Shown here: piece by piece, positions 26,340 to 41,180 of the stretch
Layout: every line of letters starts with the position of its first letter
Position numbering within the stretch: the stretch's first letter is position 1
NCBI RefSeq assembly: GCF_009730915.1
Contig: NC_052489.1
Location: 27,087,916 to 27,151,915, forward strand
Reading direction: 5' to 3'
Length of the DNA: 64,000 nt
Source: Dioscorea cayenensis subsp. rotundata
Lineage: Eukaryota; Streptophyta; Magnoliopsida; Dioscoreales; Dioscoreaceae
Notes under the pieces: model-generated
Databases searched by the model: none
What the model saw: only the letters and a program-made list of their open reading frames with translations
Told to the model about the DNA's origin: nothing
Program-made: the position numbers and the translations under genes

Positions 26340-26813
26340 ACAATGACTGGATCTATATAAATATTGAATTGAGGTTTGGAGGTGATCTTAAGATGTTCTA
26401 TGAACCGAATGAAACAGAGAAAAAAGAGAAGAAAATTTAATAAAAACTAATAGTAAAAGAGAAACATGGGTGCTGTTTTAGCAGCTGTGATTACATTTAA
26501 ATAAATTTTTAGCTGTTTATTTGACAGCCTTTGCCATCATAATTCAAGAGCTCTCAAGGGCTCTGATAAAAAATCATTGTGCAATGAAAATATATGCAAT
26601 AGAAAATGAATTATAAGCGTTATTGTTTACTGATCATTTTGTAATTTTCAATGAATTTGAAATTCTTTTTGTTCAATAACCTTTGGAATTATGCATACCG
26701 TCAATATTTTTTATATATATGCTTCTCTTTAAAAAATGAGATTATATATACATATTTATCCTTTGATATGTATTGATTACAACATTAAATTATTAAAAAC
26801 TGTTAAGAATATA
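26340..26813. other. Intergenic, nothing recognised
   Basis: AT-rich sequence between the NF-YA 3' end and the LTR-like element. No gene or repeat was recognised. Confidence 0.4.
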
Positions 26814-35343: not shown

Positions 35344-36050
35344 TTGCCACCAGGAGAAATCAACTGAATGGGGATCGAAGTGGCATCTGGCACAACAAGC
35401 GCGGTGTTGAAGAAAAGCTTAAAGCCTAGAACTGGCACAAATTGGGGTGGGTTCCAAGCCCTTGGTAGATTAATATGTGGAATAGTACAAACACTATTAT
35501 TAATTTCAGCTGGAGAAAATAGTACTATAAGTGAGCTTTGAATTACATACATTTCTTCCAGTTTTGATGTGAATTTTTTCTTTTTATAAATCTCTTCCAC
35601 AATTTGATGTTCTCTTCATCTGATTCGCTTGCAAATGGAATGTTTAGTCTTCACTTGTTTCTGAACGCTCATTTTAGTTAACCTGTATGTGTGATCCTCC
35701 TTTTGAACATCTTAATTAAAGAATCAGAAATTTAGAATCACTATGCAGTCCTCTCTTCTGGGGTTCATGTGCTGTTGTCACGTTCTTGTTTTTTTCCCTT
35801 TTGGGTGAAATTTAAACCTTTTTTATTTTTATTTTTATTTTTTACAACCAATATATCTCAATGCTGACAGACAAAGTGTTTGGTCCTGCCCATCTGTTCA
35901 CCAATTGGAAGCTGCCAAGTTTGAAGCCATTTCTTATCCTGTCCTGAGACTCGAATCAGCTGTTTCGGTTTAGACAGCAAACACAAAAGAGTTGAGCTTA
36001 TTCATACACTAGAGGACCCCACTTTCTTTCTATAGCGAATCAGAAAGAGC
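35344..36050. other. Intergenic, nothing recognised
   Basis: The 3' flank of the decayed WD40 gene and upstream region of the next gene. A T-rich run lies at about 35818-35840. No further gene is evident. Confidence 0.4.
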
Positions 36051-36169
36051 CACGTAAATGGCTTGCAGACCTCAACATCCAAAGCCTAACCCACACAGGA
36101 TCTGGCCCCCGACCCGCAAGACTTGGAGATTCGCAGTAGTATTAGTATTACCGCGCGACCACGAACTCG

Positions 36170-37419
36170 CGCCGTTGTCTAATCCTATACCCGTGTACCA
36201 GCTCTTCTCCACCGCTCTTCTCCTTTCTCTCGATCGTGATCCCTAAAAAAGGTCTCTTTCCTTCTCTTCTCTTCTCTTCTCTCGATTGTGTTTTTCCTCA
36301 CAGTTCTTTGCTTGTTGTTTGTGTTTGGTTTTTTTTGCTGATTTTCTTTCTAATTGGGAACTATGGAAAGCAAGGTTGTTGTCTATCTTGATTCGTTTCC
36401 CCATTGAAAATACCGGATTTGTGGCTTTCCTGTGCTTGATTCTGTGATTTTTATGGGAGATTATTTTAGACTCCATTTTGATGATTGGCGTCGAGGTTTT
36501 GTTGGGATTCGTTCTGTTTTTTCTTTTGATTTATCCCCTTTTTTTGGGCAATCGAAAGATTTTTTTTTCCAGAAAATAGACGTATGAAATTGTTTTAGTA
36601 TCAGTGTTGTTTGGGGTTTGATGATTTTCGCTTGTGTTTTTGTTTCATTGGTGACCGGAGTTGGTGGGTTGCTGAGCATTTGCATTTGTAATGTCTGATT
36701 CGAGTTAAAATCATGCCTTCAAACTTGGTATTATGTTAAGATGGTGATTTGGTGGTTTATTAATCGCTAATGCTTCTCAATGCAGGTTGAAATGTAGTCT
36801 ATCTCTATAGTTATGTGATTATTTCGGTTCTTTGCTTTGTGCGCCAGTGCGCGTGACAGTGTGAAGATCTTTAATGTATTTGCTAAAACTTTATGATATT
36901 CTTGGCCAGATTGTGTGTTCTGTTTCTTGTTTTGTAGACTATTGTATTTTTCATGTACAATATTTTGATAGCTATATTGCTGATGTTCTGAAGGATAGTT
37001 GGTTTAGGATGGATTTATCTTTAATGCAGAACCATTTGAAAATGTCTTGATTTTTTCTTTGCTCTTGGTTCTTACTTGCAGTGTCTGAATCAATGAAGAT
37101 TTGAATTTTGTGGAAATTCATTGGTACCACTGAGGGATTGCTGGTCCGGTTTGGGCTGGCTTCAGCTATCCAACACGGCTTTAAGAAACAAAACCCGTAT
37201 TAGAATCAGTAGGGGAAGAGAATGCTTACAAGGTTTCCCTAAGTTCCTGATTGCTTCCCCTTCTTTCCACGGTGGTCGGGGTGCCCTACCTTCAGCTGGC
37301 GGGCATCCTTCAGATCTAACTTTCCTTGCTGGTGGTGGTTCAGAAGTTTGATCAGGCTCGTACGATCTAGCTTTAGAAAAACTAGCAAACTACGTAAGTT
37401 TTTTGTTGTATATATCAGT
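36170..37419 (+). promoter_or_regulatory. 5' leader of the VTC2-like gene, with leader intron
   Basis: A CT-rich presumed transcription-start region (about 36190-36290) is followed by a probable leader intron ending at the acceptor near 37080 (TTACTTGCAG). The last leader exon (37081-37419) carries a long in-frame open stretch without ATG (see the upstream frame). Intron donor and transcription start are not fixed. Confidence 0.45.
37175..37351 (+). CDS. Candidate non-AUG upstream ORF (GGP/VTC2-type regulatory peptide)
   Basis: In the leader exon one frame is open from 37097 to the TGA at 37349-37351, about 84 codons, with no ATG. It contains GLGWLQLSNTALRNKTRIRI followed by SRGRECLQGFPKFLIASPSF, and ends HPSDLTFLAGGGSEV. 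An ACG at 37175 sits in a strong context (A at -3, G at +4) and would give a 58-residue peptide. Leaders of plant GDP-L-galactose phosphorylase (VTC2/GGP) genes are known to carry a conserved upstream ORF started at a non-AUG codon that lowers translation when ascorbate is high. Position, size and lack of ATG match that, but peptide conservation could not be checked here. The frame stops 68 bases before the main ATG. CUG or UUG starts are alternatives. Confidence 0.6.
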   Translation, partial: TALRNKTRIRISRGRECLQGFPKFLIASPSFHGGRGALPSAGGHPSDLTFLAGGGSEV

Positions 37420-40400
37420 ATGGTGTCAGCCAAGCAGCTTGAAGGTGGTTACTCTTTTGTGAAGGCGAATAGTGGTAATGAGCCGTTGAAATGTCATATT
37501 GTGCCTACAAAAGGTATGTGCTATGATTCTTATTTACGTGTATGTATGTTTTTTTTCCTGGATTATTTCTTTGCGTGTAAACTCTGTCACCAGTGCAACA
37601 ATGTAGAACAAAGCTAAAATCAGGCAACCATGCTTTATGTGCCCCATAGCACCTTTTTTTAAGGATCACATTGGAAAGTTGAAATCACCACTTGTTGGGT
37701 TTGCATTCAGTTGTGAAAATATGGATGCAAATAATGTGGATAATTATGATAAGGTGCAACTATCCATATCTAAAAACTCAAGAAGAGAGAAAAGAGAGTT
37801 TGAGTTCTGCAAAAACTAGATTTCAGCTCAAGGGATAGTGTTGGAGTTGAAGATTAAGACACAAGGAATTGTAATTGATTCACTTCTACAAGGATTAGGA
37901 GTTTTAGGAGGTTTAGGATTCTTATTATCATATGTATGTAGGTGGTGGCTTATGTTTTTATATGAGAAGGATTACTATATAGAAAAAAGTGAGATTATAG
38001 TATGGGTTGGTGTGACTCTTTTGTACTTTAATTATCTCATTGTTTAGTGAGTTTATTTGGTGCCCCTTGGTTTTTCCCTATTTAGGTTTTCTACATAACT
38101 CTTGTCGTCATTGTGGTGTTTGATTGTTTGTTTTTTCTTCTTTGTTGATTGGGTATTTCAATACCATTATGTCAAAATATCCTCACTCCTTCCCAACACT
38201 GCCGACTACATCTCTTGATTTTATTTTCTCATTTGTGGGCTCAATTGTTAATCTTGTTTAATCTTCTCATTTTTATTAAAAATCAATACCAGTAAGTTGT
38301 CATCTCTAATGGTCAGTAAGTTGACCTTTCTGGACCTGTGGTTCTTTAGATTACAAAATATATATACGGCAAGCAGAACTGTTAACTTCATGGCTTAGTC
38401 ACTATCTAACATCTCTGGTGTGGTCATTGATAAAAGTATAATGTTGTTTACAAAGAATTTTGGATTTCTGTCTCATGGATTTCACTCATTTGATCATGTA
38501 AATTTATTCAACTCCATCAGTTCTGAATCTTCATCCTAGTTTGAAGCATTATTATTGCCACTTTTTTTTATCTTAGTACGAAGAATTATGGTTACAGCTT
38601 TGGCAGTTATACCCATGACTACTGGAAAAAAAATTGTCATAACATATTTTGGAAAACTTGAAACTAAGGCAACTTGTCTGGCTTTTTCTGTATGCTAGAT
38701 TATTCCCTTTTTATGGGTATTCGCGTTGGAGGACTTCTATTTACCCAATTGGAAAATAATTTTAACATGTGGCACACATTGTTGACCAAATATGATTTAC
38801 ACATGATAGCCATACAAAATGATTTTATTTATTCTGGATGTTTCATTGATATAATTTGTTCATTCAATTCATCCAACAAGCATAGACTCTATATTTTGTA
38901 ATTCTTTATAGGAACTAAGGTGGTGCTCTATCAATTAACGGCATCTCTTGCTAGAGGACTTGCTGCATGTGATGGTCTTTCAATTAATGAAGAGGCAAAG
39001 CAGAGTTTGCTTGGTGCCCTCCTACTTGCTCAGGTAAATTATCAGCTACAATGATTTGTGCACTTTGCGTTCCTTGAGGACCTGCATTAATAATTTAGAA
39101 CACTCTGACCTTAAAAGTGGGAAGACTGCTCATGGAATGGCCAGTTCGACTATGATGTAACAAGCTGTGAAACAAAGGTGTTCTTTTGGCACACCCTGGG
39201 ATATTTCTTTTTCTGGTTTTGAATGGTTATGGTAAATGTGTCATACCTAGTGCCTGTGCAGGTGATTTGTGGTGGGAAGAAATTTTTTGCTCAGTTGAAT
39301 GAGAAATGGAATTCAAACTCATCAACACCAATTGAGAACCAAGTCATCCAACCTCTGGGACCTTCAACAAGAAAAAATGTAAAAATCCACACAGAGGATA
39401 TACTTCTGTGCATTGCCAGGGGAGAAAATGAGAGCTCGGTGCTTATGTCTTCAGCTATGGTGCCACAAGATGGAACTCTGGTCATTATTAATGTGAGCAA
39501 CATCAATTTTTTCTCTTCACTATTTGAATTAGTTACTCAGAATTCTGATTATTATTTATTGTGCTTCTAATTCTAGCCCAATCCGATAGAGTATGGCCAT
39601 GTGTACTTGGTTCCATATGATTTCTGTCATCAGGTGAAGATGTTGGACAAAAGATCATTGGAATACATCACCCAAATAGCTGTTGAGGTTGCAGACTGCT
39701 CCTTCCGTGTGTTCTATGAACACGTACCTTTAGCAAATCCAGTTGCTGCATGTTTTCAGGTAATGAACTTATTAATCCAATGAAGACTTGCACAAGTTGA
39801 AAATTGCATATATTTGTCTATGCTAGTTCATAATGGAGATTGCTAGTTGATTCTAATACCCATTATTATATGTCGACTCCTCGTTGCCAAAGATGTTTAT
39901 ATACAACTCTTTCTTCATATTGTGTGCTTGAAAATGAAGCAACTTCAAAAATTTAAAAACAAGAACCTCCAAATCATGCCATGCTTTTCTTGACAATGGT
40001 TGTTATGGCTTCTTACTTCAAAAGTATATAATCTAGTTACATGCCATTGTTTCCACATACTCTGCATGGTCTAGTTATGTCTATGCTCATGCTTTGATCT
40101 TAAATCCAGGCTAATTTCTTTGAAAATGCATTGCCCGTGGAACTTCTTGAATTAGCCCCTGTTTACGGTAATGTGCTTGACAAAGGGGTGCACATATGCG
40201 AGGTTACTGGATATCCACTGAAAACCTTAACCTTCACGAGCAATGAAAACCTAAAGCTGCTCATTACAGTCGTAATGGAGATTTGCTCCGTCTTAGAAGA
40301 ACGCAATGCTGTGTTCAGTTTGCTCATTACAGATTGCGGCAGAAAAATTTTCTTGTTTCCTCAGGTTGTCACTTGTCACTTGTTTTCTCAGTCTCTCATG

Positions 40401-40651
40401 TCTTCTCTCTTTTCTTATTCATACATATGACATATATTATTTTATTAATATTGCAGGCCCAATCTTCGTCTACAGTCCACTTATCTGCTTGGGAATGCGC
40501 AGGCTACTTCGTATTCAAGAAGGCATTGGAATTTGACAACACATCCGAGGATGAAATCTCCAAGATCTTGGCTTCTGTTTCACTTGATGATGGAGCTTTC
40601 CTGGCTCTGAAACAGTTATGCGGTAGTATTTCAAATAAACTTGTATCTTGA
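37420..40651 (+). CDS. VTC2-like GDP-hexose phosphorylase relative lacking HIT histidines
   Basis: Seven coding exons, 37420-37513, 38912-39033, 39118-39177, 39262-39492, 39577-39759, 40110-40364 and 40457-40651, join in phase to 379 aa. The small third exon encodes WEDCSWNGQFDYDVTSCETK, the family's WEDR...FRYDVTACETK block. Other family blocks follow: FFAQLNEKW, NPIEYGHVYLVP and LLITDCGRKIFLFPQ, with a C-terminal SAWECAGYFVFKK. VTC2/VTC5 convert GDP-L-galactose to L-galactose-1-phosphate, the controlling step of ascorbate synthesis. In them the histidine-triad segment reads HLHFQ. Here the aligned residues 226-230 are AACFQ, so both histidines are missing at an intact exon end. The protein also lacks VTC2's long N-terminus. 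It is either a regulatory, non-catalytic paralogue or has another activity. Start chosen: MVSAKQLEGGYSF at 37420; an in-frame ATG at 37348 is less likely. Confidence 0.85.
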
Positions 40652-41180
40652 GACAAAAAAACTCATTATTCATCTCTCATCTCAATTCAGTGTCCTGTGG
40701 TCTGTGTTGTGATTGTGTATATCCAGCAGCATTACAACTTTGAAATCTATGCTTCCTCGTTATGTAATGAGATACTTTTTTTAACTGTTCCACCTGAACA
40801 TTATATAAGTGATTATGTTAATTTTTGAAATTAGTGCATAGTAACTAACAAGGATTGATAAATTTATTCTCATCATGACTGGGTTAATATACTATTTATG
40901 TAGAACTAACTTATTTCCTTGAATGTATATAAGCACCCAAATAAATAAATAATAACAACGTTGAAAAAACAATAATAAACAAAGGTTTAAAATCACAAGA
41001 GTTACCTATTATAGAATAAAAATTTAAAAATTAACCGTAATTAAAGAATAATGTCGCGTTCTTAGTAAGCAATGGGCTAAGCCCAAACATAAAAGTTTCT
41101 ATTTGGAGGCCTTTTTCACGCGCTTGTGAGATTCGGGAAGTGAGATAAAGAGCCCAGGAAAAACGAACTCTAGGGTTGGC
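40652..41180. other. Intergenic between the VTC2-like gene and OLA1
   Basis: The 3' UTR is followed by AT-rich sequence. No gene was recognised. Confidence 0.4.

Follow-up and report, generated by a model that had tools for sequence, protein, structure and literature searches.

Upstream open reading frames (uORFs) that sense a metabolite are usually read as feedback on the enzyme encoded downstream. At the locus described here, from Dioscorea cayenensis subsp. rotundata, the core of such a sensor precedes a GGP-family protein in which the catalytic residues are lost. GGP/VTC2 leaders carry a conserved non-AUG uORF, reportedly described by Laing et al. 2015. The first-pass annotation of the window, i.e. 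of the whole 64,000-nt stretch of DNA analysed, read a long ATG-less frame in the leader of this gene as a uORF of the same type, and that reading is supported by the present analysis: the core of the frame shares homology with the uORF peptides found ahead of two intact GGP genes, and it stands before two histidine-less paralogues. We consider it probable that the frame is the known GGP conserved-peptide uORF, kept before these two paralogues, where it would make the translation of a likely non-catalytic GGP helper dependent on ascorbate. The uORF family is already known; this case is set apart by the histidine-less carriers, by a diverged N-terminal half of the peptide and by a nested AUG uORF.

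GGP-family loci of the genome and the histidine-less pair

A search of the whole genome (584 Mb) with the 58-residue peptide of the candidate uORF, which scores the best candidates only, gave five places at E≤10, all five of them GGP-family loci, and no other place was among the matches listed at that threshold. These places were the window; C6 (86% identity, end to end over the 58 codons); C15 (E 1.4e-8); and two sites on C10, near 1.842 Mb (C10a, E 5.8e-7) and near 1.662 Mb (C10b, E 1.8e-4). Protein queries at E≤0.01 produced 17 matches for the window protein and 21 for the C10a protein, all within the same five loci, and the uORF motif is present at each of the five GGP-family loci detected. 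At the DNA level, a genome search gave a single other copy, on C6 (85% identity). The uORF comparisons reported here cover this one genome.

C15 and C10a are intact canonical GGP genes, in which HLHFQ is present and whose proteins are identical at 331 of 416 residues. C10b (C10, about 1.662-1.665 Mb) is a near-copy of C10a with broken reading frames, situated ~180 kb away and 97.9% identical to it; in the 2743 aligned columns gaps (28 openings) are about as frequent as mismatches (27). This indel pattern fits a recent duplicate in decay and an assembly or sequencing artefact equally well, and because the two are indistinguishable C10b was dropped as a decayed gene or control and is unused as evidence. 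A scan of bacterial and archaeal genomes returned a lone locus (10 kb), which we attribute to chance: it is bacterial, a stop codon falls within the match, and the best GGP-protein match at that locus reaches only E 0.82.

The main gene of the window is predicted, from splice consensus and coding homology, to have seven coding exons (37420-40651) encoding a protein of 379 residues. The features of the gene and of its leader are as follows.

37082-37513, plus strand: last leader exon, running on into coding exon 1, so that a single exon holds the uORF, the spacer and the main ATG; predicted, its AG acceptor (37080-37081) preceded by pyrimidine-rich sequence and its donor AAAG/GTATGT at 37513
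37093-37104, plus strand: upstream AUG uORF, MKI and stop (3 codons), T at -3; aligned with MNS and stop in C6
37175-37351, plus strand: ACG uORF of the GGP conserved-peptide type, 58 codons and TGA; homologues in the C6, C15 and C10a leaders
37222-37242, plus strand: nested AUG uORF, MLTRFP and stop; same offset as MLARFP and stop in C6
37229-37267, plus strand: middle segment QGFPKFLIASPSF, nucleotide-identical in the histidine-less pair, different from canonical
37268-37339, plus strand: core HGGRGALPSAGGHPSDLTFLAGGG (24 codons), 22/24 v C15 and C10a, 23/24 v C6
37352-37419, plus strand: spacer, 68 nt, little conserved (28/68 v C6)
37420-37513, plus strand: coding exon 1 (ATG 37420), aligned with C6
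38912-39033, plus strand: coding exon 2, aligned with C6
39118-39177, plus strand: coding exon 3, aligned with C6
39178-39261, plus strand: intron, by exon coordinates found in the histidine-less genes only among the four intact genes
39262-39492, plus strand: coding exon 4, aligned with C6
39577-39759, plus strand: coding exon 5, aligned with C6
39745-39759, plus strand: HxHxQ site, here AACFQ, by alignment with HLHFQ of C15 and C10a
40110-40364, plus strand: coding exon 6, aligned with C6
40457-40651, plus strand: coding exon 7 with stop, aligned with C6

The window and C6 proteins are identical at 227 of 378 positions, and each is 30-33% identical to the C15 and C10a proteins (33% for the window protein). 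In a four-sequence set the window protein matches those of C15 and C10a with 150 bits (phmmer, E about 1e-47; residues 61-365 for C15), and a six-frame genome search with it reaches the canonical GGP loci at E 4.1e-10 and 3.2e-9. Pfam gave no family for the window protein at E≤10, and one match apiece, under the curated cut-off, for the C10a and C6 proteins. Searched against PDB sequences, the window protein had no match at E≤1; a match of the C10a protein (E 0.27) is regarded as chance.

The description of the gene as histidine-less, made in the first-pass annotation, is borne out. Neither member of the pair has the HxHxQ (HIT) motif that marks the GGP enzyme: the canonical HLHFQ is replaced by AACFQ in the window and by AVYFQ in C6, with both catalytic histidines lost in each. 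A region around HLHFQ, in which at least 24 columns are identical between C15 and C10a, is lost in both. KKRP, a second mark of the enzyme and the nuclear localization motif of GGP (PMC6878703), is present in C15 and C10a and missing at the aligned site in the window. The intron at 39178-39261 (84 nt in the window, 85 nt in C6) is missing from both canonical genes.

Comparison of the window and C6 main ORFs gave dN 0.253 and dS 1.048 by NG86, and 0.272 and 0.821 by YN00. Because dN/dS is about 0.24, the window gene is not taken for a pseudogene, and the substitution pattern indicates that the histidine-less proteins are kept by purifying selection. Such selection, together with the retention of PIEYGH and other GGP blocks, would also suit a protein that is still catalytic, with Cys or Tyr replacing the nucleophilic histidine, or that acts on another substrate. 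We think this unlikely, as the residue at the site differs between the two copies (C v Y) and the surrounding stretch, identical in the canonical proteins, is lost in both of them. We regard the window and C6 genes as a probable pseudoenzyme pair.

The upstream frame, its start codon and its surroundings

The stop-to-stop frame at 37097-37351 is as described earlier: it comprises 84 codons without a single ATG, is closed by TGA at 37349-37351 and stops 68 nt short of the main ATG (37420), with which it is out of phase. Both the terminal TGA and this difference in phase led us to drop the idea that the frame extends the main protein at its N-terminus. Its openness is unremarkable, since runs this long (84 or more open codons) turned up in 461 of 5000 shuffles when the 339 nt at 37081-37419 were shuffled with a first-order Markov model; open-frame statistics by themselves were dropped as evidence, and the significance of the uORF rests on comparative conservation. 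Of stop-to-stop frames as long or longer, the 64-kb window holds 85, eight of them ATG-free. Further ATG-free stop-to-stop frames of 110-150 codons lie on the plus strand at 26797, 25700, 33128 and 62393, and are possibly internal exons.

The ACG at 37175-37177, which had been singled out as a candidate start, does have an optimal context (A at -3, G at +4) and opens a 58-codon ORF with no in-frame ATG. An ACG in the same context is found in all four intact genes (window, C6, C15 and C10a), and in C10a it is immediately preceded by ATC, which recalls the AUC-or-ACG start reported for GGP uORFs (PMC6878703). From this shared context and from the published work on GGP we infer that the ACG of the window leader is used as a start; codons 1-18 show little selection. 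C6 carries an in-frame TAG eight codons upstream of its ACG, with seven open codons between, and for this reason codons 1-26 of the 84-codon frame are probably non-coding and a coding role for them was dropped.

The 38-nt block just 5′ of the ACG (37137-37174) is identical to C6 at 31/38 positions despite the C6 TAG in the uORF frame, and the beginning of the uORF (37175-37228) at 43/54; codons 1-18 are thus no better kept at the nucleotide level than the non-coding block before them. The spacer (37352-37419) is identical to C6 at 28/68 positions. It contains a strong donor-like ACGTAAGT (37392-37419), splicing of which to the exon at 38912 would drop the main start codon, and for which the C6 spacer has, by eye, no counterpart.

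Two AUG uORFs are also present in the leader. The six-codon MLTRFP (37222-37242) is nested within the ACG uORF in another frame, +47 nt from the ACG, and its C6 equivalent (minus strand), MLARFP, has the same +47 offset. In the C15 and C10a leaders there is no AUG between 150 nt upstream of the ACG and the main ATG. The three-codon MKI (37093-37104) has T at -3; the aligned AUG of C6 opens MNS, -94 from its ACG, and counts only if the C6 transcript includes this stretch.

Conservation of the uORF peptide

The uORF core, HGGRGALPSAGGHPSDLTFLAGGG (24 codons, 37268-37339), belongs to the family pattern HGGRGALPSAGG(H/S)P(S/A)DL(T/L)FLAGGG. An alignment with leaders of GGP genes had been suggested as a check on the uORF reading; run with the GGP-family leaders of the same genome, it showed the core to be 22/24 identical to C15 and to C10a, with 23/24 between the window and C6 and 21/24 between C6 and the canonical genes. 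Peptide-level conservation in other GGP-family leaders is present, and the uORF reading survived. The core is the best-conserved part of the uORF across the four intact genes. It outdoes every 24-column stretch of the downstream protein, since the best such stretch against C15 and C10a reaches 17/24 in the window (18/24 in C6).

Substitutions in the core are concentrated at third codon positions. Against C15 there are 20 nucleotide differences (2/2/16 at codon positions 1, 2 and 3) and against C10a 19 (2/2/15), with two residue changes in each case, and the expected excess of synonymous over nonsynonymous change was found (NG86 dN 0.095, dS 2.3 against C15). Random-substitution controls, which are approximate in that they assume uniform substitution, gave as few residue changes in 0/20000 trials against C15, 0/20000 against C10a and 5/20000 against C6. 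Read in its other two frames, the core region shows 14-16 changes in 23 residues against the canonical genes, and 7/23 and 9/23 against C6.

Between the window and C6 the synonymous excess holds for the uORF as a whole (NG86 dN 0.070, dS 0.299; YN00 0.078/0.259) and is pronounced in codons 19-58, where one of 40 residues is changed (NG86 dN 0.012, dS 0.28). It is small in codons 1-18, where seven of 18 residues differ (NG86 dN 0.21, dS 0.34). These values indicate purifying selection at the peptide level over codons 19-58, the first third of the peptide being weakly selected.

A uORF inherited from a functional GGP might merely persist and regulate nothing. The gene does belong to the GGP family and has lost the catalytic residues, and over its N-terminal half the peptide is no longer like the canonical uORF, with little selection in codons 1-18, as such a remnant would allow. 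We nevertheless judge this explanation quite unlikely. The window and C6 are far diverged (main-ORF NG86 dS about 1.05), yet 23/24 core residues agree between them; relative to canonical GGP dS is about 4 or not estimable, yet 21-22 of 24 core residues are retained, next to a spacer kept at only 28/68 positions.

The middle segment QGFPKFLIASPSF (37229-37267) is common to the histidine-less pair and nucleotide-identical there, with no differences in codons 19-31; its canonical equivalent is NPR(F/L)LLDNQR(C/S)PA(A/P). The identical run extends over 50 nt (37229-37278), though the main-ORF dS is about 1, and differences between the window and C6 affect 6/32 four-fold sites of the uORF as against 33/82 of the main ORF (p=0.047, Fisher test). 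Selection on the peptide alone does not fully account for this low synonymous change; gene conversion, codon or synonymous constraint, or an overlapping element are candidates.

The identical run and the few synonymous changes, as well as the conserved pre-ACG block that is non-coding in C6, might also indicate that nucleotides or RNA structure are selected rather than the peptide. This appears very unlikely, because the differences from canonical GGP are mostly at third positions and leave the residues unchanged, and because the folding energy of the uORF is ordinary: z-scores from 100 mononucleotide shuffles per uORF are -0.03 for the window, -1.4 for C6, -0.6 for C15 and -0.7 for C10a. Rfam gave no match at E≤1 in 36000-41000, and RNA structure was dropped as a conserved feature.

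Proposed working and known systems

Like the uORFs of GGP/VTC2 genes, that of the window is placed in a GGP-family 5′ leader and combines an ACG start in Kozak context with a similar peptide length, a core homologous to this genome's canonical uORFs and a stop codon near the main AUG. Published GGP uORF peptides have 60-65 residues (PMC10069634) or, in wheat, 47 and 56 (PMC6878703); at 58 residues the window peptide falls between the extremes of these reports without reaching 60. Homology to the two canonical genes is carried by the core (22/24). The differences are a downstream protein without the HxHxQ histidines, a dissimilar N-terminal half of the peptide, the nested six-codon AUG uORF and a leader intron, predicted from sequence, that precedes the uORF exon. 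In the same way, C15 and C10a have a homologous protein and a homologous uORF core, and are unlike the window gene in carrying HLHFQ and KKRP and in lacking both the intron at 39178-39261 and, between the position 150 nt upstream of the ACG and the main ATG, any AUG.

In GGP genes the ACG uORF lowers translation of the enzyme and its mutation raises ascorbate, and peptide- and ascorbate-dependent stalling on it is proposed, though not proven, in these reports (PMC11066809, PMC12559526, PMC6878703); one of them calls the role of the peptide and its interaction with ascorbate unknown (PMC11066809). By homology, a share of the ribosomes scanning the window leader would initiate at the ACG. At high ascorbate the nascent peptide would, in the manner suggested for GGP, arrest the ribosome within the core or beyond it, so that few ribosomes or none would reach the main AUG 68 nt further on. 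Ribosomes leaking past the ACG would be caught by the nested AUG uORF, a second brake that is missing in canonical leaders. The histidine-less protein would be made mainly at low ascorbate. Ascorbate feedback would then persist while catalysis is lost, as the first-pass annotation had suggested, and we infer the same. The response to ascorbate may not match that of the canonical uORF, whose peptide has a different N-terminal half.

Alternatively, the uORF and the nested AUG uORF may act together as a constitutive brake, ascorbate sensitivity having been lost or another signal being sensed. Only the core is clearly common to the canonical uORFs, QGFPKFLIASPSF is specific to the histidine-less pair and perfectly kept there, and the added AUG uORF occurs in that pair only, all of which would agree with a brake of this kind. 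Against it stands the fact that the part retained is precisely the one best conserved over the four intact genes, and we hold this alternative to be possible but rather doubtful.

The selection on the peptide of a sensor core ahead of a histidine-less protein suggests that the sensed signal probably serves something besides catalysis by that protein. As the protein probably cannot catalyse, it would most likely act by binding, either as a helper of GGP (a partner subunit) or as a decoy for PLP, which is an inhibitor of GGP (PMC11066809, PMC11066804). A helper or decoy is favoured because its production at low ascorbate would be homeostatic; an inhibitor produced under the same conditions would destabilise the loop. 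By this logic a helper or decoy is the most likely role.

A precedent from another pathway comes from trypanosomes, in which pathway enzyme and product repress the translation of the AdoMetDC prozyme, itself a dead paralogue (PMC6221367; other prozyme papers are PMC5201418 and PMC2562514). The window protein would likewise be a dead paralogue of a key biosynthetic enzyme, put under translational control by pathway enzyme and metabolite. The two differ in that the abstract on the prozyme names no uORF, and in that the partner role is shown there (PMC6221367) and supposed, like the metabolite response, for the window protein. The window gene could represent a counterpart of the prozyme that shares its sensor with the enzyme: as ascorbate falls, the dead GGP paralogue would be freed from its own uORF, bind GGP or PLP and raise flux. 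We put forward this metabolite-gated pseudoenzyme as a speculative scheme, somewhat unlikely in its full form.

No histidine-less GGP paralogue carrying this uORF turned up in a literature search that covered few subscription journals; one may exist or be annotated as a GGP-like gene. A text search with three fragments of the canonical peptide core matched no paper. GGP homologues without conserved motifs have been noted in some species and might include such genes (PMC7640755).

The present reading implies that the level of vitamin C may control a probable non-enzyme protein in Dioscorea cayenensis subsp. rotundata. Natural variation of the kind seen here, with the core retained and the N-terminal half changed, may offer a route to the residues that sense. 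Editing of the GGP uORF is already employed to raise vitamin C in crops (PMC11066809), and a second uORF-controlled member of the GGP family could matter for such editing. Downstream of the main gene, the protein encoded by the next gene of the window, from 41307 onward, may resemble OLA1/YchF-type ATPases at its beginning.
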